From Chloroflexota bacterium (lineage in GTDB: Bacteria; Chloroflexota; Anaerolineae; SpSt-313), in assembly GCA_029553955.1 (NCBI GenBank), contig JAKPJZ010000161.1, forward strand, positions 62,001 to 126,000: a stretch of DNA of 64,000 bases. The letters run 5' to 3'. Below the pieces are notes generated by a model. The model made no database searches. It was given only the letters and a program-made list of their open reading frames with translations, and was not told the DNA's origin. The translations under genes and the position numbers were made by a program. Positions 11,219 through 60,895 of this stretch are shown here, one piece after another (the stretch's first letter is position 1; every line of letters starts with the position of its first letter).

Positions 11219-11234
11219 AGCAAGAAACATGCCA
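11219..11234 (-). promoter_or_regulatory. Sigma-54 -24/-12 promoter TGGCATGTTTCTTGCT
   Basis: Consensus match upstream of the zinc-ribbon gene. Confidence 0.78.
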
Positions 11235-11264
11235 TGCCTGGTAGACCTGGCAGGTCTAGCGTCA

Positions 11265-11280
11265 TGGCACACCTATTGCT
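11265..11280 (+). promoter_or_regulatory. Sigma-54 promoter TGGCACACCTATTGCT
   Basis: Consensus match upstream of amrS; divergent from 11219-11234. Confidence 0.72.
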
Positions 11281-11520
11281 CCTCTGCCCGGGAGAGCCCC
11301 CCTACCGTTCCCCCGTCGCGGGGGAACTGAGCTGGTCTTCGCGCGCGCTGCCACTGCTTGGCTGCATGTCAAGGAGGCCAGGCCGCTGTCGGGCAACCGG
11401 ATTCCCCCACGACGGGGGAACGGTAGCGGGGGCCGCGGCTCGGGGCACTGGCAGGCGTCCGGCCGAACTGTCAATCCGTTTGCCAAGCCTGAGCCTGGCC
11501 GGGCGGGGAGGGAGGTGACG

Positions 11521-12546
11521 ATGGAACGAGAGGCCATACTCTGGGAAAAGCTCGACGAGGGCCTGGTGCACTGCTTCCTCTGCGCCCAGGAGTGCCGCAT
11601 CCGCCCTGGACGTACCGGGGTCTGCGGCGTGCGCGAGAACAGGGAGGGCACGCTCTACACCCTGGTCTTCGGCGAGGTCGTGGCGCTCAACGTGGACCCC
11701 ATCGAGAAGAAGCCCCTCTTCCACTTTTTGCCCGGCACGCAGGCGCTGTCGTTGGCCACGGTGGGCTGCAATCTGCGCTGCAAGTTCTGCCAGAACGCCG
11801 ACATTTCGCAGGTTTCCAAGGGCAAGACGGAGACAGTACACGGCGAGCCGTTGCCGCCCGAGCGCGCGGTCGAGCTGGCGCTCGACTATGGCTGTGCCAG
11901 CATCGCCTACACCTACACCGAGCCGACGATCTTTATGGAGTACGCGCTGGCCATCGCGGCGCCGGCGATCGAGGCCGGGCTGGCCAACATCTTTGTGACC
12001 AACGGCTTTATGACCCCGCAGGCGCGCCAGGCCATCCTGCCCTATCTGCACGCGGCCAACGTGGACCTCAAGGGCTTTGACGACCGCTACTACCGGCAGT
12101 TGTGTGGCGCGCGGCTGCAGCCGGTGCTCGATACCATCCGCGAGTTCCACGAGCGGGGGGTGTCGACCGAGGTGACCACGCTGGTCGTGCCCGGCGAGAA
12201 CGACAGCGACGAGGCGCTGCGGGCGGTGGCCGGGTTCCTGGCCTCGGTCAGCCCCGACCTGCCGTGGCACTTGTCGCGTTTCTACCCGACCTTCGAGCTG
12301 ACCGATCGGCCGGCGACGCCGGTGGAGACGCTGCGCCGGGCGGCGGATATCGGCCGCGAGGCGGGCCTGCGCTACGTCTACCTGGGGAACGTGCCGGGGC
12401 TGGGCGCCGAAGATACCGTCTGTCCGCAGTGCGGGGGCACGATCATCCGGCGCAATGTGTACGACATCAGCGTCTCGGGGCGGGCCGACCGCTGCATCTG
12501 TGGAGCGGAGTTGCCCGTGGTGGCTGAGTTCCGCCCGCAGACCTGA
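11521..12546 (+). CDS. amrS: AmmeMemoRadiSam system radical SAM enzyme
   Basis: CFLCAQECRIRPGRTGVCGVRENREG, radical SAM CNLRCKFCQN, C-terminal CPQCGG; RBS GGAGGTGA. Confidence 0.87.
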   Translation: MEREAILWEKLDEGLVHCFLCAQECRIRPGRTGVCGVRENREGTLYTLVFGEVVALNVDPIEKKPLFHFLPGTQALSLATVGCNLRCKFCQNADISQVSKGKTETVHGEPLPPERAVELALDYGCASIAYTYTEPTIFMEYALAIAAPAIEAGLANIFVTNGFMTPQARQAILPYLHAANVDLKGFDDRYYRQLCGARLQPVLDTIREFHERGVSTEVTTLVVPGENDSDEALRAVAGFLASVSPDLPWHLSRFYPTFELTDRPATPVETLRRAADIGREAGLRYVYLGNVPGLGAEDTVCPQCGGTIIRRNVYDISVSGRADRCICGAELPVVAEFRPQT

Positions 12547-12810
12547 CACACCGATTTCCCTGGCGGGTGGTTGGGCCGCCTTTCCCGGAAAGAAACAGCT
12601 CTCCGCTGGCAAGCTCGTAGTGGGCACGCCTGTGCGCTTTCTGCGGCGTGGCGCCAGTCCGTCCAGGCGCAGAGGGCTCGCGCAAGCGTTGCCTGGCCGT
12701 CAGGGGGGTGCGGCGCACAGGCGTGCGCACTACGAGCTCGAGTTCAGGCTCGCCGGCCTTCAGCGAGTTTTTGCCAATCGATACGCCGCCAGAGAAATCG
12801 GTGTGTCAGG
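12542..12810 (+). mobile_element. MITE-like element copy 1 (269 bp)
   Basis: Terminal inverted repeats CCTGACACACCGATTTCCCTGGCGG / CCGCCAGAGAAATCGGTGTGTCAGG; near-identical element inverted at 19435-19702. Confidence 0.85.
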
Positions 12811-12924
12811 TTTGCGGGCCGGTGAACTGGCCGCAGATGAACACGAATGAACGCTGATGGAACGGGCAAAGCTCGACAAGATCGGCGTTCATCCGTGGCC
12901 AAACCGATTGGAGTAAGCACAAGC

Positions 12925-13632
12925 ATGGAACGGATCAAGACCGACATCCGGCAGGCGGTGTTGGAGCAACTGGCGAACGACGAGCGGGTCAGCGTCGAGA
13001 GGGTCGACGTGATGGTCAACGACGGACAGGTGACGCTGCGCGGCACGGCGCCGAGCTACCGCAGCAAGTGGGCGGCTGCCGAGGCGGCGCGCCGCGTGTG
13101 GGGCGTTTACAGCGTCGACAACGAGATCGAGGTGCGCCTGACTGCGCCCAATGAAGACCAGCGCATCGCCACAGACATTCGCAACGCGCTGATGCGCGAC
13201 GCCGACCTGGATTCGCGCGCCATCAACGTTGACGTGCACGAGGGCCACGTGACCCTGCGCGGCACGGTGGCCACCGGCTGGGCCAAGAGCCGGGCCGAGG
13301 AGGACGTCCGCTGGGCGCGCGGTGTGGTCGGCGTGACCAACCAATTGGTGGTCGTGCCCTCCAGCTCGGCGACGGACCGCGACCTGGCGCTGCAGATCGA
13401 GCAGGCCCTGCGGCGCGATGCAGCGGTGAACGCCGACAACATCGACGTGGTCGTCGATAGCCGCCACGCGACGCTGAACGGCATCGTGCGCAACTGGGCC
13501 GAGCGCAACGCCGCCCTGGAGGATGCGCTGCATGTGCCGGGCGTGGTCGATGTGAGAGACGGGCTGTCGATCCGCTACGAGGCCGAGCGGCCGTCGCTGC
13601 CGACGCGCGGCCGCCGTGACTTGCCGGTGTAG
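12925..13632 (+). CDS. Triple BON-domain protein
   Basis: Three repeats with VxVxxGxVTLRGTV-like motifs. Confidence 0.85.
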   Translation: MERIKTDIRQAVLEQLANDERVSVERVDVMVNDGQVTLRGTAPSYRSKWAAAEAARRVWGVYSVDNEIEVRLTAPNEDQRIATDIRNALMRDADLDSRAINVDVHEGHVTLRGTVATGWAKSRAEEDVRWARGVVGVTNQLVVVPSSSATDRDLALQIEQALRRDAAVNADNIDVVVDSRHATLNGIVRNWAERNAALEDALHVPGVVDVRDGLSIRYEAERPSLPTRGRRDLPV

Positions 13633-13655
13633 AGTGTCGGGAAAGGAGCACAGGT

Positions 13656-14045
13656 GTGGAACTCGGAGCTCACCGCTGGCTGCCTGTCGTCGTGCTGACG
13701 GCCGCTGTGCTGGGCCTGATTCTGACCGAGTCGATCCTCGCCGCGCGCAACACGGTCGAGATCGCCCGGCCTGGTCAGAATGAGGCCATCAGCGGGGTCG
13801 TCGATGTACGGGGGACGGCAACCGGCGACGATTTCAGCTACTATCAGTTGGAGTACAGCGCACAGGGCCGGCCATGGACGCCCATCGGCCAGCCGCGCTG
13901 CAGCAGGCAGGTCAGCAACGGCACGCTGGGGGTGTGGGATACGCACCAACTGGCCCCAGGCCATTACCAGTTGCGACTGAGCGTGGCCGACAACATGGGC
14001 AACCATAGCCAGAGCACGATCGAGGTGACGGTCGCGGCCAATTGA
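13656..14045 (+). CDS. Secreted/membrane-anchored Ig-like small protein
   Basis: GTG start, hydrophobic N-terminal signal, Ig-like beta pattern (ISGVVDVRGTA...YYQLEYS...GHYQLRLSVAD). Confidence 0.5.
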   Translation: MELGAHRWLPVVVLTAAVLGLILTESILAARNTVEIARPGQNEAISGVVDVRGTATGDDFSYYQLEYSAQGRPWTPIGQPRCSRQVSNGTLGVWDTHQLAPGHYQLRLSVADNMGNHSQSTIEVTVAAN

Positions 14046-14163
14046 TGCGGCGGGATGCCAACCGGGTGATCGCCCAACCGGGAATCATGCAGTGACAGGC
14101 CAAACAGGCAATGGGGGAAGAAGCGGGTCCGGGCCGAGAGCCTGGATCCGCTTCTTCTTCTGC

Positions 14164-14179
14164 TGGCATGTTTCTTGCT
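14164..14179 (+). promoter_or_regulatory. Sigma-54 promoter TGGCATGTTTCTTGCT
   Basis: Upstream of gamma-glutamyltransferase gene. Confidence 0.78.
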
Positions 14180-14219
14180 TCGTTGTCTCCTACCACTCTC
14201 AATTCACCCCATGTGCGCC

Positions 14220-14257
14220 AGGTTCGCAGCCGGCGCTTGAGCGCCGGCTACGAACCT
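14220..14257. repeat. GGTTCGTAG-family element, short form
   Basis: AGGTTCGCAGCCGGCGCTTGAGCGCCGGCTACGAACCT. Confidence 0.85.
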
Positions 14258-14273
14258 CGAGGAGGCTCTGCCG

Positions 14274-15920
14274 GTGCAGCAGATGGCGATACAGACGGGG
14301 CGGCCTGTGACCATGGCCTCGCGCGGCATTGTGGCGGCGCCGCACTATCTGGCGGCCGAGGCCGGCACCTGGGCGCTGCAGCAGGGCGGGAACGCGGTCG
14401 ATGCTGCCATTGCGTCGAGCGCCGTGCTCTGCGTCGTCGAGCCGCACATGGCGGGCCTGGGCGGCGATGCCACGTTGATGGTGTGGCAGCCAGGGCGCGG
14501 GCAGCCCCTCTGCCTGAACGGCTCGGGCGCCGCGGGGGGCCGGGCGAGCGTCGAGTACTACCGCGATCGGGGCCACGATGCCGTGCCGGCGCGCGGCGTG
14601 CTGGCGGCCAGCACAGCGCCGGGTGCGGTGGCGGCCTGGGGCGACGTGCACGGTCGCTGGGGCGCGCTGGCCTGGGAGGAGCTTTTCGAGCCGGCGCTGC
14701 ACTATGCCGAGAGCGGCTTTCCCGTGTCGGCGCAACTGGCGCGCCGGCTGGCACAGGCGCAGCCGCTGCTCGAGCGGAGCGAAGGCACGGCGGCCATCTT
14801 TCTGCGCGAGGGCGCGCCGTACGCGGAGGGCGAGACCCTGGTGCAGCGCGACCTGGCCCGGTCGCTCGAAAGCCTGGCCGCCGACGGCGCCTCTACGCTC
14901 TACACCGGCGACCTGGCCGCGGCGATTGCCGATGACCTGGAACGACGCGGCGGCCTGCTCAGCCGCAGCGACCTGGCCGGCCACCACTCGGCCTGGGTCG
15001 CGCCGCTGCGCACAGCCTACCGCGGGCGCACGCTGTACGAACTGCCGCCCAACACCCTGGGTCCGGCGGCCATGCTCACCGCGAACCTGCTGGAGGGCTG
15101 GGATGTGGCGGCCATGGGCGACCAGGGCGCCGTCTACTATCACACCATGGCCGAAGTGGCCAAGATCTCGCTGGCCGATGGCGGCGCCTGGCCGGCCGAC
15201 CCGGCCTTCGTGGCGGCTTCCCTGGAGCGCCTGCTTTCGAAGGAGCATGCCGAGCGTCGGCGGACGCAGGTGCAGGCGAGCCGCGCACGGCCGCTCGCCG
15301 ACTATGCGGAGTGGGCGCAACAGGCGGTGTGCCCCCTGCCGCCGCTGACCGGCACCGCGGCCGTCGTCGCCGTCGATGCGGGCGGGCTTGCCGTGTCGCT
15401 GGTGCAGAGCCTGCACGCCGATTTTGGCTCTGGCGTGGTGGCGGGCGATAGCGGCATCCTGCTGCATTCGAGCGGCGCGGGCTTTGACCTCGACCCGGCC
15501 AGCCCCAACCGCCTCGAGCCCCACAAGCGCCCCGTGCAGGCGCTGCTGCCGGCGATGCTGTTCGCAGGCGAGCGGCCCTGGCTCGTCTTCGGCGCGAGCG
15601 GCGGCGTGGCGCAGCCGCAGATCCACGCCGGCCTGCTCACGCGCCTGGCGGATCTGGGGCAGAACGTGCAGCAGGCCATCGAGGCGCCGCGCTGGCGCTA
15701 CGAGGCGGCCGGCGACGGGGGCATGGGGACGCTCAACATCGAAGGCCGCGTGGCCGACTCGGTGCTGCGCCAACTGCGCGAGATGGGCCACGAGGTAAGG
15801 GCCGTCGACGACTGGGCCGAGATGATGGGCCAGGCGCAGGGCGTGGTCGTGGACCGCGAGCGCGGCATCCTCGCCGGCGGCGCCGACCCGCGGGGCGATG
15901 GGCAGGCGATTGGGTGGTGA
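14274..15920 (+). CDS. Gamma-glutamyltransferase family protein
   Basis: GIVAAPHYLAAEAG, GGNAVDAAIA, GLGGDATLMVW; TAAVVAVDAGGLAVSLVQS with candidate catalytic Thr; GSGVVAGDSGILL. Confidence 0.85.
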   Translation: MQQMAIQTGRPVTMASRGIVAAPHYLAAEAGTWALQQGGNAVDAAIASSAVLCVVEPHMAGLGGDATLMVWQPGRGQPLCLNGSGAAGGRASVEYYRDRGHDAVPARGVLAASTAPGAVAAWGDVHGRWGALAWEELFEPALHYAESGFPVSAQLARRLAQAQPLLERSEGTAAIFLREGAPYAEGETLVQRDLARSLESLAADGASTLYTGDLAAAIADDLERRGGLLSRSDLAGHHSAWVAPLRTAYRGRTLYELPPNTLGPAAMLTANLLEGWDVAAMGDQGAVYYHTMAEVAKISLADGGAWPADPAFVAASLERLLSKEHAERRRTQVQASRARPLADYAEWAQQAVCPLPPLTGTAAVVAVDAGGLAVSLVQSLHADFGSGVVAGDSGILLHSSGAGFDLDPASPNRLEPHKRPVQALLPAMLFAGERPWLVFGASGGVAQPQIHAGLLTRLADLGQNVQQAIEAPRWRYEAAGDGGMGTLNIEGRVADSVLRQLREMGHEVRAVDDWAEMMGQAQGVVVDRERGILAGGADPRGDGQAIGW

Positions 15921-15926
15921 GACGAG

Positions 15927-16044
15927 AGACGTGAGGCGTAATGCGTAAAACGTAATGCGTAAGATGTGTTGCGTGTTGCGTGCTGTGTCGTGCGTGTTCC
16001 GTTTCAGTAGGTGGGCAAACGGAATACGCAACACGCAACACGTC

Positions 16045-16058
<14 letters not shown>
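15927..16058. repeat. TAATGCGTAA/GTGTTGCG composite palindromic repeat
   Basis: GAGGCGTAATGCGTAAAACG ... CGTCTTACGCATTACGCCTC. Confidence 0.85.
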
Positions 16059-19143
<3,085 letters not shown>

Positions 19144-19727: not shown

Positions 19728-19743
19728 TGGCACGCTTGTTGCT
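19728..19743 (+). promoter_or_regulatory. Sigma-54 promoter TGGCACGCTTGTTGCT
   Basis: 34 nt upstream of the DUF4418-like gene. Confidence 0.8.
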
Positions 19744-19776: not shown

Positions 19777-20217
19777 ATGAAGCTCATTGCGGCGTTGCTT
19801 CTGGCCTCGGCGCTGCTGGTGGCCGGGATTCCCTACCTGAGCAACTGCCAACACGACGGCAAGATGCTGGCGCTGGCGAACGGCAGCCAGGCGCCGATGC
19901 GCTGCTACTGGACGGCGCGCGGCGAGGTGGCGCTGGCGGTGCCGCTGGCCGGGTTGGCGCTGGCCCTGGGCGTGAGCCGGCGGAAGGAGACGCGGCGGCT
20001 GCTGGCGCTGCCGGGCGCTCTGTTGGGGCTGGGCGTGGCCGCGCTGCCCACGTATCTGATCGGCACCTGTACCATGGCCGAGGCATCGTGCAACCTGGTG
20101 ATGAAGCCGGCGCTGGCGCTGCTGGGGATCGTGGTGGCCGCAAGCAGCCTGGCGGCGGGGGCCATCCCCGAGGCGGCGCCACGGCACGCCCGGCCGGGCG
20201 GCGCGGCCGGCGGCTGA
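19777..20217 (+). CDS. DUF4418-like membrane protein
   Basis: Multiple TM helices, GSQAPMRCYWTARGEVAL pattern; sigma-54 consensus 34 nt upstream. Confidence 0.58.
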   Translation: MKLIAALLLASALLVAGIPYLSNCQHDGKMLALANGSQAPMRCYWTARGEVALAVPLAGLALALGVSRRKETRRLLALPGALLGLGVAALPTYLIGTCTMAEASCNLVMKPALALLGIVVAASSLAAGAIPEAAPRHARPGGAAGG

Positions 20218-20229
20218 TGGGAGCAGGCG

Positions 20230-21428
20230 TTGTCGCCGTTGGATGAGCTCAGGCTGGCCTGGCGCAACGTGGCGGGCAACCGCTTCCGCAGCGGGGCGGT
20301 CTTGGGCTGTGCGGCGGCCCTCGCCGGGCTGGCGCTGGCGACGGCGCTCCTGCTGAGTGGCGCGCAGCGGAGCCTGCAACTGGCGCGGGCGCGGCTGGGC
20401 GCCGATATTATCGCCGTGCCTGCGGGAGCGCAGCCTGGCGTGGAGGGCGCGCTGTTGATGGGCGTGCCCACGCAGGCCTGGATGCCGCGCGCGAACCTGG
20501 CGCGGATCGCCGCCATCCCCGGCGTAGCCGCCGTGTCGCCGCAGATGTATCTCGCGTCGCTCTCGAGGGCGTCGTGCTGTGCAGTGTCGGAGATGTTGCT
20601 GGTGGCCTACGACCCCGAGAGCGATTTTGCCGTCGCGCCCTGGCTGGCACGCAGCCTGGGGCGCGGCCTGGTGCTCGGCGAGGCTGTCGGCGGCAGCAGC
20701 GTGTTCGTGCCTGAAGGGGAGGAGGCCATCCGCCTCTACGGCTATGACGTGCGGCTGAGGGGCAACTTGGAGCCGACGGGCACCAACCTCGACCGCAGCC
20801 TGTTCTTCACCTTCGAGACCGCCGCCGAGATGGCACGGCTCTCGCACGGCCAGGCCGAGCGGCCGCTCGAAATCCCGCCCGACAGCATCTCGGCAGCGCT
20901 GGTCAAGGTGGCGCCGGGCAGCGATGCGCGGCTGGTGGCGCTGACCATCCTGCAGGAGGTGCCGGGAGTGACGCCGCTCGAGGGCGCGGATATGCTCCGC
21001 TCCTTTCGCGGCCAGATAGCGGGCCTCTTGCGCACGCTGCTGGCGCTGTTGGGGCTCACGCTGGGCGCCTCGCTGTTGCTGCTGGCGCTGGTCTTTTCTC
21101 TGGCGGCGCACGAGCGGCGGCGCGAGATCGCGCTGCTGCGCGCGCTGGGGGCGAGCGCGGGCGCGGTCTGCCGCATGTTGCTCGCGGAGGCGGGCTTGCG
21201 GCAGGGGGCGCCGCGCTGGGGAGCGCACTGGCCACGCTGTGCCTCGCTCTGTTCCGGGGCCTGATTGCGTCGTCACTCGCGATGCCTTTTCTTTTGCCGC
21301 CGTTGGGCGCCCTGTTCGTGCTCGCCGCCGGTTGTGTGGCCGTGGCTGTGGTGGGGGTAGCGCTGGCGGCGCTCGCGCCGGCGCTGTGGATCAGCCGCCA
21401 ACAGCCGGCCATGGCGATGAGGGAGTGA
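20230..21428 (+). CDS. FtsX/MacB-type ABC transporter permease, frameshifted near 21205
   Basis: ORF 20230-21264 has FtsX N-terminus and SLAAHERRREIALLRALGAS; missing terminal TM helices are encoded in another frame (ALGSALATLCLALFRGLIASSLAMPFLLPPLGALFVLAAGCVAVAVVGVALAALAPALWISRQQPAMAMRE*). Confidence 0.72.
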
Positions 21429-41959: not shown

Positions 41960-44482
41960 CTAGCGCCGCCGGCTGAAACGGCGCGCGGCGCGGCGCGGCT
42001 CGCCGCGGCGCACCTGGATCGCTTCGCGCTTCTGGGGTTGCCCTTCCTCTTCGCCGGCCGCCTGGCTGAACTCTTGGTAGATGCGCGCCAGCTCTTGCAG
42101 GCGCTGCGCCACGCGATAGTTGACCGTCCCCTCGGGGTACTTGCCGTTGACCTTTTCGCCGGCGCGCATGCCGGTGAGCAGCTCGATGCCCTCGTCGATG
42201 GTGCGCACCTGGTAGATGTGGAACTTGGCCTCACGCACCGCCTGCACCACGTCGTGGCGCAGGTTGAGGTTATCGGCGTTCTGCGCCGGGATGAGCACGC
42301 CCTGGTCGCCGGTGAGGCCTTTCGAGCGGCAGACGTCGAAAAAGCCCTCGATCTTGGCGGTGGCGCCGCCGATGGGCTGCACCTCGCCGCGCTGGTTGAC
42401 CGAGCCGGTCACGGCCAGGTTCTGGCGGATGGGCACGCCCGCCAGGCTGGAGAGCAGGGCGTAGAGCTCGGCCGAGGAGGCGCTGTCGCCTTCGACGCCT
42501 TCGTAGCTCTGCTCGAAGGTGAGGCTGGCCGACAGGCTGAGCGGCAGCTCCTGGGCGAAGCGGCCGCCGAGGTAGCCGGCGAGGATGAGCACCCCCTTGT
42601 TGTGGATGGGCCCGGAGAGCTCGGCCTCGCGGTCGATGGCGATGACGTTGCCGCGGCCGACGTAGGTGCGGGCGGTGATGCGCGTCGGCTGGCCGAACTC
42701 ATAGTCGCCCAGCATCGAGACCGAGAGCCCGTTCACCTGGCCGGCGACGGCGCCTTCGGTGTCGACCATGATCACGCCGCGGTCGATCATCTCGCGGATG
42801 CGCTCTTCGATGCGGTTGGAGCGGTAGACCTTCTCGTCGATGGCCCTCTGCACGTCGGCCGCAGAGACGAGTTCGTGCCCTGCCTGCGTGGCCCAGAAGC
42901 TCGCCTCCGACACCATGTCGGCCACCTCGCTGAAGCGGGTGGCCAGCTTCTTCTGGTCCTCGGCCAGGCGTGAGCCGTACTCCACAATGCGCGCCACGCC
43001 GCCGGGGTCAAAGGGCCGCAGGCCGTTCTCGCGGATGTGGTTGGCCACAAAGAGCGCGTACTCGTCGATGGCCTTCTGGTCGCGGTCCATCTCGGAGCCA
43101 AAGTCGGCCTTGACCTTGAAGAGGCGCTGGAACTCGTCGTCGTACTCGTAGAGCAGGTAGTAGAGCCACGGCTCGCCGATGAGCACGACTTTGGTGTTGG
43201 CCGGGATAGGCTCGGGCTCGAGTGTCGTCGTGTTGAAGGCGCGGAATTGGGCGCCCATCTCCTCGATGTCGATGCGGCCGTCTTTGAGCACGCGTTTGAC
43301 CGCATCCCACGAGAAGGGGTTGGTGAGGACGTCGCGCGCTTCCAAGATCAGGTAGCCGCCGTTGGCCTTGTGGAAGGCGCCGGCGCGGATCTTGGTGAAA
43401 TCGGTCACCAGGGCGCCGAACTGGGCCTCCTGCTCGACCTGGCCGATGAGGTTGTAATAGGTCGGGTTCGATTCGGCGACGATGGGCGCGCCCTTTTGCT
43501 GGCAGCTATCGACAATGACGTTCACTTTGTAGCGGCTGAGGTCCATCTCTTGGGCGCCGCCGCCGAGCATCTGTGCCAGGGGGTTGGCCTGCTCGGCCTC
43601 GGGCCGGAAGACGTCGGCACTGTCAATGACATCGCGGCGCACTTCTTCGAGGTACTCTTCCACCTCGGCGTACTGGGCGTACTTGGCCTCGAGATCGTCG
43701 ACAAAGTGGCCGATGGCGAAAGCGGTCACCTGGCGGTCGAGCTCGTTCAGCGTGTCTTGGGCTTGCTTCTGGCGTGCCCGAACCTTGGTCAGCGTGCCGG
43801 CGACCTGCTGCTGCAGGTCGCGTTCGGCCGTTTCCTCTTCCTGCTTTTCGCCTGTAGAGAGGCGCTGGTATTCGCGCTCGGTGAGCGGCTCGCCGCTGGG
43901 GGAGGTGCGCACCAGCATCGTGCCCATGGGCGTGCGCGCCAGGCCATAGCCGCGCTGCCGCGCCTGCCGCTCCAGGTCGCTCAGGATCTGCGACTCCTGT
44001 TCCTGCAGTTGGCGGCTGATGTTGGCTTTTTGCTGGGCGTACTCCTCGCTCTCAAAGGCGCGTGGGATCTCGCGCTTCAGGCTCTCGACCAACTGGTCCA
44101 TGTCTCTGCGCAACTGGCAGCCCAAACCGGGCGGCAGGCTGATGGCGCGGGGCTTGGCTGGGTCGGCAAAGTTGTTGACATAGACCCAATCGGGTGGCGT
44201 GGGCGCGCCTTTGGCCTTTTCCTCGACCAGGCGCCTGACCATGGTAGAGCGCCCGGTGCCCACCTGGCCCAGGACGAAAATATTGAAGCCCTGCCCGGGG
44301 ACGTCCATGCCGAACTGCAGCGCGTGTCTGGCCCGATCCTGGCCGATCATGTCGGTGAGGCCGTGCAGATCGGCCGTGCTCTTGAAGGTGAACTGTGCGG
44401 GGTCCACGTTCAGCTTGAGCTGCTCCGGCTTGAGCTCGTGATTCTGGATCACCTCGCCCTCCTCTGCCTGTACCTCGAACAA
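41960..44482 (-). CDS. Lon-like ATP-dependent protease, paralog 2
   Basis: Walker A GQVGTGRST; EGDSASSAELYALLSSLAG; ATAKIEGFFDVC. Confidence 0.86.
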   Translation of the reverse strand: MFEVQAEEGEVIQNHELKPEQLKLNVDPAQFTFKSTADLHGLTDMIGQDRARHALQFGMDVPGQGFNIFVLGQVGTGRSTMVRRLVEEKAKGAPTPPDWVYVNNFADPAKPRAISLPPGLGCQLRRDMDQLVESLKREIPRAFESEEYAQQKANISRQLQEQESQILSDLERQARQRGYGLARTPMGTMLVRTSPSGEPLTEREYQRLSTGEKQEEETAERDLQQQVAGTLTKVRARQKQAQDTLNELDRQVTAFAIGHFVDDLEAKYAQYAEVEEYLEEVRRDVIDSADVFRPEAEQANPLAQMLGGGAQEMDLSRYKVNVIVDSCQQKGAPIVAESNPTYYNLIGQVEQEAQFGALVTDFTKIRAGAFHKANGGYLILEARDVLTNPFSWDAVKRVLKDGRIDIEEMGAQFRAFNTTTLEPEPIPANTKVVLIGEPWLYYLLYEYDDEFQRLFKVKADFGSEMDRDQKAIDEYALFVANHIRENGLRPFDPGGVARIVEYGSRLAEDQKKLATRFSEVADMVSEASFWATQAGHELVSAADVQRAIDEKVYRSNRIEERIREMIDRGVIMVDTEGAVAGQVNGLSVSMLGDYEFGQPTRITARTYVGRGNVIAIDREAELSGPIHNKGVLILAGYLGGRFAQELPLSLSASLTFEQSYEGVEGDSASSAELYALLSSLAGVPIRQNLAVTGSVNQRGEVQPIGGATAKIEGFFDVCRSKGLTGDQGVLIPAQNADNLNLRHDVVQAVREAKFHIYQVRTIDEGIELLTGMRAGEKVNGKYPEGTVNYRVAQRLQELARIYQEFSQAAGEEEGQPQKREAIQVRRGEPRRAARRFSRRR

Positions 44483-44595: not shown

Positions 44596-44611
44596 AGCAA
44601 GGTGTGTGCCA
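44596..44611 (-). promoter_or_regulatory. Sigma-54 promoter TGGCACACACCTTGCT
   Basis: Upstream of Lon-like paralog 2. Confidence 0.75.
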
Positions 44612-47005: not shown

Positions 47006-47461
47006 CTACTTTCTGATCGCGCCGAGGCGCGGCATAGCCGGCTTGGAGATCTCCTCGAGGGCATCGCAGGCCACGCCTTGCTGGGTGGGCTCGGCGTCGA
47101 CGGCCAGGTCACCCAGGGAGACGATGCCCACCAGCTTGCCGTTCTCCATGATGGGCAGGCGGCGGATCTGCTCCTCGGCCATGAGGTCCGAGGCGCTGTT
47201 GACGTCCCAGTCGGGCATGCCGGTGAACAGGTCGCGGCTCATGATGTCGCCCACGCGGGCGCCGGCGCAGTCGAGCCCTTCTGCGACGGCACGGCAGGCG
47301 ATGTCGCGGTCGGTCAGGATGCCCATCAGTTGGTTGGAATCCTGGATCAGCACATCGCCGATATCTGCGTCGCGCATCAGGCGGGCTGCCTCCATGATCG
47401 TGGCCGACGACGGCACGGACACCACGTCGGTCGTCATGATCTCGCGGATTTTCATGTGCAC
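47006..47461 (-). CDS. CBS-domain pair protein
   Basis: MKIREIMTTDVVSVPSSATIMEAARLM...GILTDRDIACRAVA...IMSRDLFT...VSLGDLAV. Confidence 0.92.
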   Translation of the reverse strand: MHMKIREIMTTDVVSVPSSATIMEAARLMRDADIGDVLIQDSNQLMGILTDRDIACRAVAEGLDCAGARVGDIMSRDLFTGMPDWDVNSASDLMAEEQIRRLPIMENGKLVGIVSLGDLAVDAEPTQQGVACDALEEISKPAMPRLGAIRK

Positions 47462-47492: not shown

Positions 47493-47508
47493 AGCAACCG
47501 GCGTGCCA
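47493..47508 (-). promoter_or_regulatory. Sigma-54 promoter TGGCACGCCGGTTGCT
   Basis: 32 nt upstream of the CBS-domain gene. Confidence 0.8.
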
Positions 47509-48616: not shown

Positions 48617-50485
48617 TCACCTCTGCCCGCCCCCGGCCACGACGATCGCTTCGCGCTCGGCGCCGGGCTGTGGCCGGGGCACGCCCTCATACACGCGCCC
48701 GGCAAGGCGGTAGAGGGCCTGCTGCAGCGATTGGATGGCCATGCGGATGACGGCCGCATCGCCGGTCTGCATGGCGCGTCGGATGCGATCGGCCTCGAGC
48801 GTGATGCTCTGCCGCTCCTCGGCTGAGAGCCGGGGGCCGAGCTGGCGCAGGCTGCGTTCGGCAAACATGATGGCCTGGTCGGCCTCGTTGCGCGCTTCGA
48901 TCGCCTCGCGGCGGCGGCGGTCGGCGGCGGCGTGCTCGCGGGCCTCGGCCATCATGCGCTCGATATCGGCCTGGCTGAGGTTGGTCGACGCCGTGGCCGT
49001 GATCTGCTGGGCGCGGCCGGTGTCTCTGTCGCGGGCGGAAACGCTGAGGATGCCGTTGGCGTCGACGTCAAAGGTCACGTCGAGCAGCGGCGTGCCCCGC
49101 GGCGCTGGCGGAATGCCCTCGAGCCGGAAGCGACCCAGAGGCATGTTGTCGGCGGCGAACTCGCGCTCGCCTTGCAGCACGCGGACCTCGGCGGCCGTCT
49201 GGCCGTCGACGGCGGTGGAGAAGGTCAGCGTCCTGCGTGCTGGGATGGGCGTGTTGCGTGGGATCAGCACAGTCATGAGGCCGCCGAGGGTCTCGACGCC
49301 CAGGGAGAGGGGGGTAACCTCGAGCAGGACGATGCTTTCGACCGCGCCCGAGAGCATGCCTGCCTGCAGCGCCGCCCCGACGGCGACGACCTCATCGGGG
49401 TTCACGCCCCGGTGCACCTCCTTCTCGCCCACCAGGCTGCGCACCATGCGGTTGACTGCAGGCATGCGCGTGGCACCGCCCACCATGACCACCTCACGCA
49501 CGTCGTGCGCGGCCAGGCGGGCATCGCCGAGTGCGCGCTCGAAGGGCGGGCGCAGGCGCTCGGTGAGGTCGGCGGTGAACTGCTCGAACCTGGCCCGTGT
49601 CAGGCATGTCTGCAGGTGCCGGGGGCCTGCGGAGGTCGCGGCGATGAACGGCAGATCGATCTCGGCTTCGAGCACCATCGAGAGCTCGGTCTTGGCGCGC
49701 TCGGCCGCCTCGCGCAACCGCTGCAGAGCCTGGGGGATGCGGCGCAGGTCGATCCCCTGGGCCTGCTGGAACTCGCTGGCGATGGCGTCGATGATGCGCT
49801 GGTCATAGTCGTCGCCACCCAGGTGCGTGTCGCCGCTCGTGGCGAGGACCTCGATGACGCCTGCGCCCACGCGGAGGACGGAGACGTCGTAGGTGCCGCC
49901 GCCCAGGTCGAAGATGAGGATGTGGTGAGGCTCTTTCTTCTCGAGGCCGTAGGCCAGCGATGCTGCCGTAGGCTCGCTGGCGATGCGCAGGACGTTGAGC
50001 CCGGCGATGGTGCCAGCGTCCCTGGTCGCCTGGCGCTGGGCATCGTCAAAGTAGGCCGGCACGGTGATGACCGCCTGGTTCACAGGCTCGCCGAGGTAGG
50101 CCTCGGCATCGCGCTTGAGCTTTTGCAGGATCATCGCCGAGATCTCTTGCGGCGTATAGTCGCGGCCCTTCTGAGGGATGCGCACCCTCGCGTCGCCTGC
50201 CGGCCCCTCGACGACGTGGTAGGCGACCAGATGAGCTTCGTTTTGGACCTCGCTGAAGCGCCGGCCCATGAAGCGCTTGATCGAGTAGACCGTGTTCTCG
50301 GGGTTGATCGCGGCCTGCCGGCGTGCCTGGCCGCCGACGATGATCTCGCCGGTGCGGGTAAAGGCCGCCACCGATGGGGTAACGCGCCCGCCCTCCGAGT
50401 TAGGGATGGCGGTGGGGTGCGGTCCCTCCATCACCGCGATCGCCGAGTTGGTCGTTCCCAAGTCAATGCCGACCGCCTTGGGCAT
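48617..50485 (-). CDS. dnaK: Hsp70/DnaK-type chaperone
   Basis: VGIDLGTTNSAIAVMEG, IFDLGGGTYDVSVL, VVMVGGATRMPAV. Confidence 0.92.
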   Translation of the reverse strand: MPKAVGIDLGTTNSAIAVMEGPHPTAIPNSEGGRVTPSVAAFTRTGEIIVGGQARRQAAINPENTVYSIKRFMGRRFSEVQNEAHLVAYHVVEGPAGDARVRIPQKGRDYTPQEISAMILQKLKRDAEAYLGEPVNQAVITVPAYFDDAQRQATRDAGTIAGLNVLRIASEPTAASLAYGLEKKEPHHILIFDLGGGTYDVSVLRVGAGVIEVLATSGDTHLGGDDYDQRIIDAIASEFQQAQGIDLRRIPQALQRLREAAERAKTELSMVLEAEIDLPFIAATSAGPRHLQTCLTRARFEQFTADLTERLRPPFERALGDARLAAHDVREVVMVGGATRMPAVNRMVRSLVGEKEVHRGVNPDEVVAVGAALQAGMLSGAVESIVLLEVTPLSLGVETLGGLMTVLIPRNTPIPARRTLTFSTAVDGQTAAEVRVLQGEREFAADNMPLGRFRLEGIPPAPRGTPLLDVTFDVDANGILSVSARDRDTGRAQQITATASTNLSQADIERMMAEAREHAAADRRRREAIEARNEADQAIMFAERSLRQLGPRLSAEERQSITLEADRIRRAMQTGDAAVIRMAIQSLQQALYRLAGRVYEGVPRPQPGAEREAIVVAGGGQR

Positions 50486-50507: not shown

Positions 50508-50523
50508 AGCAATTCCCGTGCCA
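50508..50523 (-). promoter_or_regulatory. Sigma-54 promoter TGGCACGGGAATTGCT
   Basis: 23 nt upstream of dnaK-like start. Confidence 0.82.
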
Positions 50524-50576: not shown

Positions 50577-50592
50577 TGGCACGTTTCTTGCT
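50577..50592 (+). promoter_or_regulatory. Sigma-54 promoter TGGCACGTTTCTTGCT
   Basis: Upstream of response regulator; divergent from 50508-50523. Confidence 0.82.
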
Positions 50593-50635: not shown

Positions 50636-51085
50636 TTGCTCGAGGCATCATACCAGATCCTGGTAGTTGAAGACGATCCGATCCTGGGGAACATGCTCAG
50701 GGAGATCCTCTCAGACGCCGGCTATCGCGTCCGCTGGGCGCAGGATGTGATCGCCGCGCTCTCGGCCCTGGAGCAGCAACCCGTCGATCTGATCACGCTC
50801 GACATCGAGTTGGGCACCTACAGTGGGCGCGGCTTGCTGGCCCTGCTCAAGGCCGACCCGCGCACCCGCGATATCTCGGTGATCGTCGTTTCGAGTTGCC
50901 AGCCGGACCCCGACCTGTGCCAGATGGCGCAGCATGTGCTGAGCAAGCCGTTCAACGTCGCCGTACTGCTGCAGCTTGTCGCGGCCTCCATCGATGGGCA
51001 GGGCCCGGCTTGCCTGGCGCGCTGGCAGCGGGCGGCTGCGAACGACAAGATCGGATGGGAAGTGGCACGTGAGATACTGGACTAG
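50636..51085 (+). CDS. Single-domain response regulator
   Basis: TTG start; QILVVEDDPILGNMLREIL, phospho-Asp LITLDIEL, VLSKPFNVAVLL. Confidence 0.85.
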   Translation: MLEASYQILVVEDDPILGNMLREILSDAGYRVRWAQDVIAALSALEQQPVDLITLDIELGTYSGRGLLALLKADPRTRDISVIVVSSCQPDPDLCQMAQHVLSKPFNVAVLLQLVAASIDGQGPACLARWQRAAANDKIGWEVAREILD

Positions 51086-54027: not shown

Positions 54028-54085
54028 CGCCACCGGGCTATTGCCAGCATGCCGGGGGCGGATGGGTCTCCTCTCCAACAGGCTG

Positions 54086-55274: not shown

Positions 55275-55437
55275 CCAAAAGGGTTCGCTCCGGTCTTGTG
55301 CGAAGCATTGGGCCCGGACATTGCCGGGGTCTGGGAAGCAACTACGGTTGCAGTACTAGGAACGGCCCGCGCCGCCGCCTATTTCTCCCTCACTACGAAC
55401 TCGCGCCGTTCGCCTGGCGCACGCGGCTGGTCCTAGC

Positions 55438-55872
55438 TCACACAGGCTCGGGCACGGCCGCTGCCGCTGCGCTGCGCTGTGGCGCTTGTTGGAGCGATTT
55501 CTCCAGCTCGCAGGTGAGCGAATGCGTCTCGAACTCTTTGCGCCACTTCCTGGCCCAGTGCTCGAGGCTGTCGGGGGCGCACGCCTGCTGGCCACACAGC
55601 GCTGCCTCTTGGTCGAGGCGATGGTTGGTCGCCTCGGCATCCAGGTTCTGCAGCTTGGCCTTGAAGCTCGAGTCGTCCTCCATGGGAATGGTCTCTTCGG
55701 CATAGGCCTCGAGGGTCATGAGATGCTTGCGGATGCACATCTCGCCGGCCGGGCTGTAGGGACATGCTTGTGCGGCGGCATGGTCCTGAAGCAGCAGCAG
55801 GTGTTTGATGATCTGCTCGTACTGGTACTTGAGGGCGCCTGGCGCCATCGCTCTGAACTCATTCGGTTTCAT
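55438..55872 (-). CDS. Hypothetical protein
   Basis: 144 aa with start MKPNEFRAM and preceding purine-rich RBS; helical, several Cys. Confidence 0.55.
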   Translation of the reverse strand: MKPNEFRAMAPGALKYQYEQIIKHLLLLQDHAAAQACPYSPAGEMCIRKHLMTLEAYAEETIPMEDDSSFKAKLQNLDAEATNHRLDQEAALCGQQACAPDSLEHWARKWRKEFETHSLTCELEKSLQQAPQRSAAAAAVPEPV

Positions 55873-55942
55873 GCTGGTCCTCCCATCCCGTGAGGTTCTG
55901 CTCAACAGCCGTGGATAGGTTCCGTGGCGGTCACTGCCCAGC

Positions 55943-56185
55943 CTGTCATTGCGAGTACCCCAGGGTTCGCCGAACCCTGTGCCCAGCACAGAACCTTGGC
56001 CTGTCATCGCGAGGAGGCGGCCGCAGCCGCCGACGAAGCAATCTCCACGTCGGACATTGGAGATTGCTTCGCTGCGCTCGCAATGACAGTGCCCAAGTTT
56101 CTCAACAGCCGCAGCGAAGCAATCCCCAACGTGGCCGTGACGTGCATGGCTGGGGATTGCTTCGCTGCAGCTCGCAATGACAGGT
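55943..56185. repeat. TGTCATTGCGAG-family palindromic repeats
   Basis: Same motif, multiple units. Confidence 0.85.
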
Positions 56186-56357
56186 TGAGCAATTGCCCGT
56201 GGCGGCCATGCGCGCAGCGTTATGCTCCGCTGGCCGGCCCTGGCAGGTCACGTTGCCAGACCTGCCCCACCCCCAGCAACCCGCGTGCCAACTGCGGGCG
56301 CCGGCTGTGGCACGGGTTGTGCTGGTGCGGGGCGTGAGAAGCGGACCGAGTGAGGTG

Positions 56358-57299
56358 ATGCGCATGGCTCGAAGACCTGCAGGGCCCCCGCACAAGGGCT
56401 GCGGCGGGTGCGCAGTGCTGTTGGCCGGCTTGCTGGTGGGCGTGGGCCTGGTGGCGGCCAACCTGCTGCCGGGGGCGGGCACCCTGGTGGCGCGTGCCTG
56501 GTCGTTGGCGGCGCCGGGTGGGGCGCGGAGCGGGGCTAGCCGGCTGAGCCGGGCCGAGGTTCAGGCCCTGACGGCTGCCGCCGAGGCGGCCTGGCAGCGC
56601 GGCAACTGGGAGGATGTGGTGGCGAGCGTGACGGCGCTGGCCGAGGCCGGTCTCGCGAGCCGCGCGTACGACGCGCGCCTGTACGAGGCCCATGTCAGCC
56701 TGGGATGGGCGCTGTTGGCCGAAGACAGGCGCGAGGAGGCCGAGGCGCACCTGGTGCGCGCCCTGGAGGTCAGGCCCGACGGGCAGGAGGCGCTGGAAGG
56801 GCTGCGTATGGCGCGGCAGCCGGGGGCGGCTGCGTCGCAGTCCCTGGCGCAGCCCGTGGCGCAGGCGGCGGCGAGCAGCGTGGCCGTCAGCCATGTCGTG
56901 CAGCGCGGCGACACGCTGTTTGCCCTTGCCCGGCGCTTCGGCACGAGCGTCGAGGCGATTATGGCGGCGAACAGCCTCACGGGCAGCACCATACGGGTTG
57001 GTCAGACGCTGGTGATTCCGGCCTGCCCGACGGCGTGCGCGCAGATGGCGCAGGTGACGATGTGCACGCCGACATGTGTGCCCGTATGCCCCTCACCGCC
57101 ACCGCCGACGTGTGTGCCGGTGTGCCCGCCGGTGGTGTGCGTGCCGGTGTGCCCGACACCGGTGCCGACGTGTGTGCCGGTGTGCCCGCCCGTGGTGTGC
57201 GTGCCGGTGTGCCCGCCTGTGGTGTGCGTGCCGGTGTGCCCTCCTGTGGTGTGCGTGCCGGTGTGCCCACCCGTGGTGTGCGTGCCGGTTGATCCATAG
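56358..57299 (+). CDS. Membrane-anchored TPR-like/LysM protein with C-terminal Cys/Pro tandem repeats
   Basis: TM segment; SHVVQRGDTLFALARRFGTSVEAIMAANSLTGSTIRVGQTLVIP LysM; CPPVVCVPV repeats. Confidence 0.82.
   Translation: MRMARRPAGPPHKGCGGCAVLLAGLLVGVGLVAANLLPGAGTLVARAWSLAAPGGARSGASRLSRAEVQALTAAAEAAWQRGNWEDVVASVTALAEAGLASRAYDARLYEAHVSLGWALLAEDRREEAEAHLVRALEVRPDGQEALEGLRMARQPGAAASQSLAQPVAQAAASSVAVSHVVQRGDTLFALARRFGTSVEAIMAANSLTGSTIRVGQTLVIPACPTACAQMAQVTMCTPTCVPVCPSPPPPTCVPVCPPVVCVPVCPTPVPTCVPVCPPVVCVPVCPPVVCVPVCPPVVCVPVCPPVVCVPVDP
57084..57296 (+). repeat. Tandem 27-nt coding repeat (CPPVVCVPV) and related units
   Basis: Four consecutive CPPVVCVPV units preceded by PTCVPVCP variants. Confidence 0.85.
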
Positions 57300-57403
57300 C
57301 CGGGTGCCGGCGAGCGCCAGACGGTTGTGAGGCTCATAGTGCGCACGCCCGTGCGCACTATGAGCTTTTCCCATGCTGCCCACGCAGAGCACCGGCGGCA
57401 ATG

Positions 57404-57508
57404 GGTTCGTAGTTGGCGCTTGAGCGCCTTGACCCCTGCGGATTGGCGCTGCATCCGCACCTGGCGCCATGCTGAAGGGTCAAGGCGCTCAAGCGCCAAC
57501 TACGAACC
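57404..57508. repeat. GGTTCGTAG-family palindromic element
   Basis: GGTTCGTAGTTGGCGCTTGAGCGCCTTGACCC ... mirrored. Confidence 0.9.
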
Positions 57509-57517
57509 TGAGCAACA

Positions 57518-58363
57518 CTATACCTGGCCCAGGGTGCAGACGGCGCCGGGGCGCTTGATGCGCAGGCTGGCGATTTCGAGCACGCGCAGGTTGTGCTCCA
57601 TGGCCTCTGTCTCGAGGAAGGCGGTCACGATATCCTGGGCCACGGCCAGGTCCATGTTCTCGGTGCCCGGCGCGACGACGACGGCGACGCCTGGCGGCAG
57701 GGTAGGGCTCATGTAGACCTCGCCGCCCACGAGGCGGCGCACCTGGTCGATCTCGAGGACGCCGGTATTGTCGAAGACGCGGTTGAGTCGAACAAAGAGC
57801 GGCGGCGGCACGACGACGGTGAAGGGTTCGCGCATGCTGTGCCCCACCAGCTCGGTCACGGCGCTGAGGATAGCCGCAAAGGGGCCGCCGGGCTGGTCCC
57901 AATGGCCCAAGGGCACGCGCAGGCGGTCGGCAAAGTTGAGAAAGCCCACCTGCTGCTGTTCGTCATTGCCGTTAAGGATGGTGCGGTCCTCGAGGGTGGC
58001 CACGTGGGTGGCGGCGATGGCGGCCGCGGTCGTATCCAGCGGCATGCCCAGGCGGCGCGAGGTTTCGAGGTCGCGCCAACTGAGCCGAAAGTCGCGGTAC
58101 AGGATGGGCAGGGGCACACAGCGCCGGCTCTCGGGGAAGAGGATGTCCTCGCCCTCGGCGCCGAAGGCGCTGATGCGCGCGGCCTGGGTGGCCAGGTAGC
58201 GATCGGCGTTCAGGTGTTGCACGCCGGCGCCCAGCGGCCCAAAGATGGTCAGGAAGCGCCGGGCGACCAGGGTCCGGCGCGCCACCTGGACCACGGCCTG
58301 GTCGAGAGCCTGCCACTCTTCGGCGGTGAGCGGCGCCTGGGATCGCAACAAGTAGTCACTCAT
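57518..58363 (-). CDS. Encapsulin shell protein (family 1, linocin-M18-like)
   Basis: LTAEEWQALDQAVVQVARRTLVARRFLTIFGPLGAGVQ; whole-length encapsulin-like pattern, 281 aa. Confidence 0.88.
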   Translation of the reverse strand: MSDYLLRSQAPLTAEEWQALDQAVVQVARRTLVARRFLTIFGPLGAGVQHLNADRYLATQAARISAFGAEGEDILFPESRRCVPLPILYRDFRLSWRDLETSRRLGMPLDTTAAAIAATHVATLEDRTILNGNDEQQQVGFLNFADRLRVPLGHWDQPGGPFAAILSAVTELVGHSMREPFTVVVPPPLFVRLNRVFDNTGVLEIDQVRRLVGGEVYMSPTLPPGVAVVVAPGTENMDLAVAQDIVTAFLETEAMEHNLRVLEIASLRIKRPGAVCTLGQV

Positions 58364-58377
58364 AGCGTATCTCCCCA

Positions 58378-58540
58378 CTGTCACTGCGAGTACGCCAGGG
58401 TTCCCGGAACCCTGTGCAAGGCGCATGACACCGTGCTGTAGCCGCGGCATCGTGCCGCGTAGTAGAGTCCGCGGCAACATGCCGCGCCTACGGTCCGGCG
58501 GTCAATGTCATCAACAGCGCAGCGAAGCCATGACAGAGTG
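58378..58540. repeat. TGTCATTGCGAG-family-derived repeat between EncFtn and encapsulin genes
   Basis: TGTCACTGCGAGTACGCCAGGGTTCCCGGAACCCTG ... AGCGAAGCCATGACA. Confidence 0.7.
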
Positions 58541-58556
58541 TAAGGGCACATGGGGC

Positions 58557-58934
58557 CTACGGCTTGCCCATGAGGCTGCCCACGGTCAATTGCCCTCTGG
58601 GCCATGTAGCTCTCGGGGTTTCGCCGGCAGCCGTGGGCTCGACCTCACCTTCACTCAGGATTTGGGCGATGTTGCCGGGTGCGGTTTGTAGTTCCTGGGC
58701 CTGGGTGGGGTCGAGTAGGGCCAGGAGCTGGATGAACTCGGCGATGTGCTCCTTCTCTTCGTCGCGGATGTGCGCCAAGACGGCTTTGGCCCGCTCGTCG
58801 TCAGTGGCGTCGATGTGCGCCTGGTAGAGGTTGGTGGCGTCGATCTCCGACGCAATGTCGAGGCGGATGGCGCGTGCCAACTCGGAGGCGCTCATCTTGC
58901 GGGGCACCAGTGTGATGAAGGGGTCGGTGCTCAT
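58557..58934 (-). CDS. Encapsulated ferritin-like protein (EncFtn) with C-terminal cargo-loading peptide
   Basis: ELARAIRLDIASEIDATNLYQAHIDATDDERAKAVLAHIRDEEKEHIAEFIQLLALLDP; C-terminus RGQLTVGSLMGKP. Confidence 0.92.
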   Translation of the reverse strand: MSTDPFITLVPRKMSASELARAIRLDIASEIDATNLYQAHIDATDDERAKAVLAHIRDEEKEHIAEFIQLLALLDPTQAQELQTAPGNIAQILSEGEVEPTAAGETPRATWPRGQLTVGSLMGKP

Positions 58935-60829
58935 GTGGAGGCTTCTCCTTTCGCGTGTGCGATCTGCATGATCTCGTCGCCGCTGAGCTCTTCCTTCTCG
59001 GCCAAGGCGGCGGCCAGCGCATCGAGGGTGTGCCGCTGTTGCACGAGGAGGCTACGGGCACGCTCGAGGGCCTGGTTGAGCAGCCGCTGCACCTCCATGT
59101 CGATGGCGCTCGCCGTCTGCTCGCTGTAGGGTCGCGCGCGGCCCAGGTCTTCGCCCAGGAAGACGGTCCCCCCTTCGCTGTCAAAGCTCACCGGGCCCAG
59201 GCTCTGGCCCATGCCCCAGGTGGAGACCATACGGTGGGCGATGGTGGTGGCTTCGCGCAGGTCGGCCTCGGCGCCGGAGGTGCGGGTGTCAAAGATGTAC
59301 ATCTCGCTGGCGCGGCCGGCCAGGAGGACGGCCAGCCGGTCCTGCATATAGTCCTGCTGGTAGATGTGCGCCTCGCCCTCGGGCAATTGCTGGGTGACGC
59401 CCATGGCGCGCCCGCGGGGGATGATGGTGACCTTGTGGATGGGGTCGGCCTTGGGCAGGCTGATGGCCGCCAGGGTGTGGCCGGCCTCGTGATAGGCCAG
59501 GATGCGCTTCTCTTCCTCGCCGATGGCTACGCCTTCGCGCTTGAGGCCCATGAGCACCTTGTCGCGGGCGTCTTCTATGTCGGCCTGTTCGATCACGGTT
59601 TTGCCCTCGCGGGCTGCATTCAGCGCCGCTTCGTTGAGCAGGTTCTCCAGGTCGGCGCCCGAGAAGCCCGGCGTGCCGCGGGCGACCTGGCCCAGGTCCA
59701 CGTCGGGGCCCAGCGGCTTGTTGCGGGCATGCACCTCCAGGATGGCCTGGCGCCCGCTGGTGGAGGGCAGGTCGACGGTAACGTGGCGGTCGAAGCGTCC
59801 GGGGCGCAACAGGGCCGGGTCGAGGATGTCGGGGCGGTTGGTGGCGGCGAGGACGATGACGCCCTCGTTCGACTCAAAGCCGTCCATCTCGCTCAGGAGC
59901 TGGTTGAGCGTCTGCTCGCGCTCGTCGTGGCCGCCGCCGATGCCTGCGCCGCGCAGCCGGCCGATGGAGTCGAGCTCGTCGACAAAGATGATGCTGGGGC
60001 GGGTGCGCTTGGCCTCGTTGAAGAGGTCACGCACCCGGCTGGCGCCCACGCCCACAAACATCTCCATGAAATCGGAGCCGGTGATGCTGTAAAAGGGCAC
60101 GCCGGCCTCGCCGGCTACGGCGCGCGCCAGGAGCGTCTTGCCGGTGCCCGGCGGCCCGACGAGGAGGATGCCCTTGGGCATGGAGGCGCCCACGCGGCGG
60201 AACTTGCCCGGGTTGCGCAGGAACTCGATGACCTCGCGCAGCTCGTTCTTGGCGCCGTCGGCACCGGCGACGTCGTCAAAGGTGACGGCCGACGATGACT
60301 CCTTATGATACACCTTCGCGCCGCTGCGGCCAAACTCGTTCAGCGTGGGTCCTTGGCCGCGCATGCTGCGCATGAAGGCAAAGCCGATGGCCAGCAGCAG
60401 GAGGAGCGGCACCAGGGTCAGCAGGATCGAGCCGATGCTTGACGAGCTGGAGGCCGACACGGCTTCGATCTGCACGTTGCGCTGCGCCAGCAGGTTGAAC
60501 AGCTCGGGGTCGCCAAAGGGCGGCCGCATGGTGACGAAGGAGCTGTATTCGACGGGGTTGCCCTGGCTGCTCGTCGTCTTGGCCGGGCTCTGCAGCTCGC
60601 CCTGGATCTGGTCGCCCTGAGCGACGATGCTGGTGACGTTGCCGGCCAGGAGCTGGCTACGGAACTCGGAGTAGCGTATCTGGGTGGCGCTGGGGTTCAG
60701 GCTGCCTGCGCTGGTGGCACAGCCGTAGACCATGAGTGCGAGGACGATCGGCACCACGAGCCAGGCGATGAGCGTCGACCACTGCATGCCGCCCCCGGGC
60801 CCTGACCTGTTGTTCTGTCTTCCTGCCAT
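58931..60829 (-). CDS. ftsH: ATP-dependent zinc metalloprotease FtsH
   Basis: [42 protein letters not shown] region, HEAGH zinc motif; 4-nt ATGA overlap with EncFtn. Confidence 0.96.
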
Positions 60830-60848
60830 CCTGTCCCCTGTCGAGAGT

Positions 60849-60875
60849 CAACTCGCGAGCCGTGCTCGCGAGTTG
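60849..60875. promoter_or_regulatory. Perfect inverted repeat CAACTCGCGAGC-CGT-GCTCGCGAGTTG over the predicted ftsH transcription start
   Basis: 12-bp perfect arms, 3-nt centre. Confidence 0.7.
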
Positions 60876-60879
60876 GGGT

Positions 60880-60895
60880 AGCAACATATGTGCCA
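60880..60895 (-). promoter_or_regulatory. Sigma-54 promoter TGGCACATATGTTGCT
   Basis: Between the M50 gene stop and ftsH start. Confidence 0.8.

Follow-up and report, generated by a model that had tools for sequence, protein, structure and literature searches.

Near-identical sigma-54 promoters in a family of Anaerolineae suggest a genome-wide regulon under one, probably untethered activator

Sigma-54 control is commonly taught promoter by promoter, with many activators that each have their own enhancer. The stretch of DNA examined here, positions 62,001 to 126,000 of contig JAKPJZ010000161.1 from a Chloroflexota bacterium (the window, 64,000 nucleotides in full), raises the question of what a dense series of near-consensus sigma-54 (-24/-12) promoter sequences is doing in front of functionally diverse genes. 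The best-supported reading, which we consider likely, is a genome-wide sigma-54 regulon under a single, probably untethered activator. The pattern TGGCAYRNNNNTTGCT has ten exact matches in the window, compared to a mean of 0.02 and a maximum of 1 in 100 dinucleotide shuffles. An earlier note on this DNA had listed nine such 16-mers; all nine are present as given, but the count was incomplete and the site at 56275(-) is the tenth. All ten lie outside the coding sequences called by our own Markov-model gene caller, which was trained on about 0.7 Mb of the source genome. The next gene is correctly oriented in every case, at a distance of 22-240 nt except for 402 nt at 56275(-), and these independent gene calls bear out the note's claim that its nine sites stand outside genes and point at a nearby one. 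The sites and their predicted targets are given below, together with one weaker site; conservation refers to G001, a genome of the same family but of a second genus.

11219..11234, minus strand: predicted sigma-54 promoter TGGCATGTTTCTTGCT, 27.0 bits by position weight matrix (PWM); target zinc-ribbon protein 10938-11165(-), PF09855, 53 nt away
11265..11280, plus strand: predicted sigma-54 promoter, divergent partner of 11219(-); target radical-SAM/AmrS-like protein 11521-12546(+), PF04055, 240 nt; the homologue in G001 likewise has a sigma-54 site
14164..14179, plus strand: predicted sigma-54 promoter; target gamma-glutamyltransferase 14274-15920(+), PF01019, 94 nt; conserved in G001
19728..19743, plus strand: predicted sigma-54 promoter; target DUF4418 protein 19777-20217, then FtsX/MacB-like protein 20239-21264 (+), 33 nt
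44596..44611, minus strand: predicted sigma-54 promoter; target Lon-like (LonB AAA / LonC helical) protease 41960-44452(-), 143 nt; homologues in G001 have sites
47493..47508, minus strand: predicted sigma-54 promoter; target CBS-domain protein 47006-47455(-), 37 nt; conserved in G001
50508..50523, minus strand: predicted sigma-54 promoter; target second DnaK paralogue 48617-50485(-), 22 nt
50577..50592, plus strand: predicted sigma-54 promoter, divergent; target receiver-domain protein 50693-51085(+), 100 nt; conserved in G001
56275..56290, minus strand: tenth sigma-54-like site, 19.4 bits; nearest downstream gene 55438-55872(-), 402 nt, for which a Pfam search gave no match
56308..56323, plus strand: weaker sigma-54-like site TGGCACGGGTTGTGCT, 12.1 bits, near noise level; precedes LysM/TPR protein 56415-57299(+)
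60880..60895, minus strand: predicted sigma-54 promoter; targets ftsH 58931-60787, EncFtn-like gene 58557-58934 and encapsulin gene 57518-58363 (-), 92 nt

The source genome (G000) is a metagenome-assembled genome (MAG) of 5.37 Mb in 272 contigs, 92% complete with 8% contamination, and the window lies in a contig of 186 kb. It contains 88 exact sites, 44 per strand, whereas the reversed pattern occurs twice. Coding regions take up about 79% of the sequence, yet 83 of the 88 sites lie between genes (binomial p ~2.5e-49), and of the 80 sites with a resolvable next gene 78 are directed at it. The motif is thus much rarer inside genes and off-strand, a check that the earlier note had proposed. Positions left free by the pattern are also biased, with C before TGG at a frequency of 0.58, T at spacer position 3 at 0.48 and C at spacer position 4 at 0.55, as expected of the classical sigma-54 consensus YTGGCACG-N4-TTGCW. 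Pattern counts, free-position bias and PWM agree in this respect with the fixed GG-to-GC spacing and consensus context that had been claimed. PWM sites of at least 14 bits are nearly all intergenic and directional, and the matrix scan of 0.63 Mb yields about 20 further sites that look real in addition to the exact matches, from which the genome total is estimated at probably 90-130 predicted promoters. By sequence and comparative criteria this promoter set is real. Contamination as the origin of the sites could be ruled out, since they recur in two independent genomes of the same family.

Both a sigma factor and an activator of the expected kind are encoded close by, 5.5-8 kb past the right end of the window, which answers the question whether the genome has rpoN and a GAFTGA-type AAA+ activator at all. 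The single rpoN (L040:6547-7941(-)) directly follows the activator gene (L040:7938-9368(-)) with a four-base overlap. RpoN has the AID (PF00309), core-binding (PF04963) and DNA-binding (PF04552) domains and the RpoN box ARRTVAKYR, and aligns with solved sigma-54 chains over nearly its whole length. The activator consists of a receiver, an AAA+ domain with GSFTGA as a variant of GAFTGA, a lid and a Fis-type helix-turn-helix (HTH). It is the only strong Sigma54_activat match in the genome (PF00158, E=6e-74); three others are weak (E 1e-5 to 1e-6) and occur in long proteins at positions typical of ClpB-type AAA+. Upstream of the activator, on the same strand, are ftsH and htrA, and the near-consensus site TGGCACAGAACATGCT (14.8 bits) precedes this ftsH, so the htrA-ftsH-activator-rpoN cluster may be self-regulated.

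A separate feature of RpoN is an invariant CxxC...CxxC zinc-ribbon-like insert (C61, C64, C73, C76) between region I and the core-binding domain. It occurs in the source protein and in G002, G003/G041-type, G027 and G038 genomes, is absent from the aligned solved sigma-54, and an open-access literature search found no paper describing it.

How would one activator reach so many promoters? The HTH offers a clue. Its HTH_8 score is 21.6 bits in G000 (Pfam cut-off 22) and 25.4 in G001, versus 44.3, 49.6 and 53.2 in intact relatives. Between the activators of these two genera identity is 88-89% in the receiver and 90% in the AAA+ domain but 64% in the HTH. The putative recognition helix reads PARELEAKLRAL / STAELELKVREW, where relatives instead have SRDELRYRLRKY and YRRLLYAKMKEY, whose basic residues are lost here. 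A search of 140 upstream regions (82 from G000, 58 from G001) against 302 controls for words of 6-8 nucleotides, dyads and inverted repeats detected no shared enhancer; the strongest enriched upstream dyad was a second, divergent sigma-54 site. An eroded HTH and the lack of a common enhancer fit an activator making little specific contact with DNA. We suggest that sequence-specific enhancer binding probably plays little or no part in its action, and that activation may be DNA-independent. Alternatively, the regulon could be the same while the residual HTH binds enhancers too degenerate or too distant for simple word and dyad searches to pick up. Binding to weak, variable sites is common among activators, the HTH is still recognisable at these scores, and words of the GATGCC/CATCCC type are mildly enriched. 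However, the recognition helix lacks the basic residues of its relatives, HTH identity is far below that of the other domains and no strong shared dyad emerged, so that we regard enhancer binding as a real but clearly less probable option. Weak or non-specific DNA binding by the residual HTH is possible.

In view of the eroded HTH and the lack of a shared enhancer, we propose a single activator, controlled by phosphorylation and tethered weakly or not at all, comparable to CtcC of Chlamydia. In this mechanism RpoN-polymerase would wait at near-consensus promoters as silent closed complexes. The NtrC-type response regulator, a receiver-AAA+ protein with the GSFTGA loop, would be phosphorylated by an unlinked kinase, form an AAA+ ring and open all sigma-54 closed complexes together. 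As erosion of the Fis-type HTH would leave little or no specific enhancer binding, the regulon would be defined by promoter strength alone. Read from the gene content, its products would act in the general stress response, in protein quality control, in protection of redox state and iron, and in growth arrest.

The targets were assigned by Pfam for about 70 direct targets of some 80. Among them are the second DnaK, FtsH, Lon, HPF/RaiA and L25/Ctc. The DnaK paralogue in the window is full-length (PF00012, E=9e-229) and would be sigma-54-driven, while a higher-scoring dnaK lies on contig C134; the ftsH-EncFtn-encapsulin cluster spans 57518..60787(-) (PF01434, PF22277, PF04454). Further targets are encapsulin with EncFtn, YtxH, BON proteins, DUF2267, SHOCT, Holin-X, BrkB, KaiC and YetF. 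The set also holds short-chain dehydrogenases, an old-yellow-enzyme type oxidoreductase, c-type cytochromes, a molybdopterin oxidoreductase and an ODP/flavodiiron-like protein, as well as lactate racemase, type-II GAPDH, MurT ligase, FemAB, glycosyltransferases, DUF362, DUF4397 and DUF4418. In G001 additional targets resemble Hsp20 and Ku, identified by eye. Such a set resembles general-stress or stationary-phase regulons, and from its content it looks like a general-stress, stationary-phase and redox or quiescence regulon. Near-identical predicted promoters and a single activator appear to govern together about a hundred genes for stress, protein quality, redox and dormancy. The earlier proposal that many proteostasis and stress genes share one programme was right about the programme but too narrow, because proteostasis genes are a minority of the roughly 80 targets.

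Instead of general stress, the regulon could mainly concern remodelling of the envelope or exterior, or redox metabolism under oxygen limitation. The MurT ligase, FemAB, glycosyltransferases and BrkB, the cytochromes and the three other redox proteins (molybdopterin oxidoreductase, ODP/flavodiiron-like, old-yellow-enzyme type) would suit that interpretation, and the exterior is the sigma-54 theme put forward by Francke et al. (PMC3162934). DnaK2, FtsH, Lon, HPF, L25/Ctc, YtxH, BON, DUF2267, KaiC and encapsulin-ferritin are, on the other hand, typical general-stress items, as are the Hsp20- and Ku-like targets of G001. We therefore treat the envelope or redox interpretation as the less probable of the two, though one to be kept in mind.

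The same-family genomes G001 and G002 have 60 and 48 exact sites and one activator each, and 58 of the 60 sites in G001 are intergenic. Close homologues of G000 targets make up 28 of 51 resolvable G001 targets, while among 95 non-target genes nearby there are 2 (Fisher p=7e-14), a comparison that started from sites in both genomes and measures target sharing, not site-by-site conservation. Shared window targets are the AmrS-like, gamma-glutamyltransferase, Lon, CBS and receiver proteins. With sigma factor and activator present, sites intergenic and directional, and targets conserved in a second genus, the RpoN regulon inferred in the earlier note is strongly supported. In the class, 12 of 60 relatives have rpoN, and site enrichment is found only in the source family. 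Among 301 genomes of the phylum the next highest exact-site count is 22, in family f62; elsewhere one Pseudomonas sp. genome has 9 exact sites and one Myxococcus sp. genome has 1. The source family has the highest count among about 370 genomes scanned. Family f62 has one strong activator with an intact HTH and about 20 sites, and shares with the source family type-II GAPDH as a target in one genome and a BON-domain protein in the other. The type-II (archaeal-like) GAPDH gene, L047:9477-10634(+) on contig C146, is a predicted sigma-54 target in G000, in G001 and in the distant f62 genome G193.

Two further explanations fare less well. Several activators might use the sites and only one be visible in an incomplete MAG, giving a mosaic regulon as in Proteobacteria. 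The 92% completeness and 272 contigs leave room for this, but each of three family genomes (97%, 92% and 84% complete) has exactly one strong activator, adjoining rpoN in all three, and other matches are far weaker; we consider a mosaic unlikely. That the 16-mer is another conserved intergenic element (a repeat, a binding site of a different regulator or a processing site) is very improbable, because, even though the pattern was derived from the sites themselves, the sites match the sigma-54 consensus down to features that the pattern did not select, namely the C before TGG and the bias of the spacer, are directional toward genes, have unrelated flanks and are enriched only in an rpoN-bearing family.

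Several observations weigh against a genome-wide regulon under one untethered activator. The HTH is eroded, not deleted, and scores above the Pfam cut-off in G001 and just below it in G000. Short words such as GATGCC and CATCCC are mildly enriched upstream of targets, the target set is varied, and some stress genes are not targets. No cognate kinase was found beside rpoN in G000. The case for promoters was built from sequence and genome comparison. The fragmentation, incompleteness and 8% contamination of the MAG mean that a second activator could be missing, yet G001, at 97% completeness, also has one. The wider proposal, in which sigma-54 would be the general-stress or quiescence sigma factor of the family, with an enhancer-free activator switching about 100 promoters in a phylum with recurrent HTH loss or erosion, seems to us about evenly balanced between right and wrong.

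The closest precedent is Chlamydia trachomatis, with one sigma-54, one NtrC-family activator (CtcC) without a working DNA-binding domain and a global late or quiescence-type programme; expression of the CtcC ATPase domain alone upregulated 64 genes, ftsH among them (PMC7482065). Chlamydia, however, is a pathogen with a genome of about 1 Mb and membrane and type III secretion targets. The present case concerns Chloroflexota of 4-5.4 Mb with 88 exact sites, a stress, redox and proteostasis set, an HTH eroded but not absent, an RpoN bearing a zinc-ribbon-like insert, and no linked kinase. CtcC and FlgR are precedents for activators without a functional DNA-binding (D) domain (PMC7175178, PMC3162934), and like these group 5 bacterial enhancer-binding proteins the activator combines receiver and AAA+ (PMC7175178). 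Unlike them it retains an HTH remnant in the source family, with the domain fully lost in some other Chloroflexota. Borrelia Rrp2-RpoN-RpoS likewise has a single activator, a single RpoN and a stress or lifestyle role, but there RpoN activates rpoS directly in a cascade, whereas here it would act directly at about 100 promoters (PMC3037356).

Proteobacterial RpoN regulons have an identical -24/-12 consensus, but perfect matches to it are few there, and the activators are numerous and have enhancers dedicated to them. If the general-stress reading is right, sigma-B, sigma-S and EcfG are similar in target content and breadth; they belong to a different sigma family and use anti-sigma factors or partner switching, in contrast to an ATP-driven activator. 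An open-access search of literature on RpoN/sigma-54 in Chloroflexota and Anaerolineae found no regulon of this kind, and the main text of a 2025 multi-phylum sigma-54 survey does not mention Chloroflexi. The mechanism is already known; scale, content and lineage look new. If true, sigma-54 can be converted into a genome-wide master switch outside reduced pathogens, in a free-living lineage. What becomes of promoter strength and regulon size once an activator loses DNA binding could be studied by comparing genomes, and many unannotated Chloroflexota genes (DUF2267, DUF4397, DUF4418 and DUF362 proteins) would gain functional hypotheses.

The activator tree places the source family among activators from other classes for which the examined genomes show no linked kinase (support 0.99), apart from the cassettes of other Anaerolineae. 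In several Anaerolineales/Chloroflexi MAGs the HTH is wholly absent, and activators near or adjoining rpoN end after the AAA+ lid:

L118:10338-11513: HTH-less activator
L120:10356-11540: HTH-less activator
L129:9349-10512: HTH-less activator
L136:10412-11614: HTH-less activator

It therefore seems that the DNA-binding domain has been eroded or lost repeatedly in the phylum, with the large regulon seen only in the source family. An eroded HTH is not sufficient for regulon expansion, because no more than about 9-14 sites occur in family f65, which shows no HTH_8 match, and f62 reaches about 20 with an intact HTH.

Strong sigma-54 sites lie upstream of rpoN in the f65 genome G344 (L307:3697(+)) and upstream of the activator in the f62 genome G103 (L308:4923(+)), where autoregulation is likely. 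Other Anaerolineae families (L305, L310, L311, L312) have cassettes of rpoN, an intervening gene that resembles a sensor kinase in some, and an activator, with a nearby sigma-54 site ending in TTGCA, suggesting narrow local use of sigma-54. The f62 and f94 activators (L266, L267, L265) have GSFTSA/GAFTSA instead of GAFTGA, which is unusual for the loop that contacts sigma-54. Near the htrA-ftsH-activator-rpoN cluster of the source genome lies a gene whose CHAT-domain product also gives NACHT/NB-ARC-like and TPR matches (L040:13917-17459(+)).

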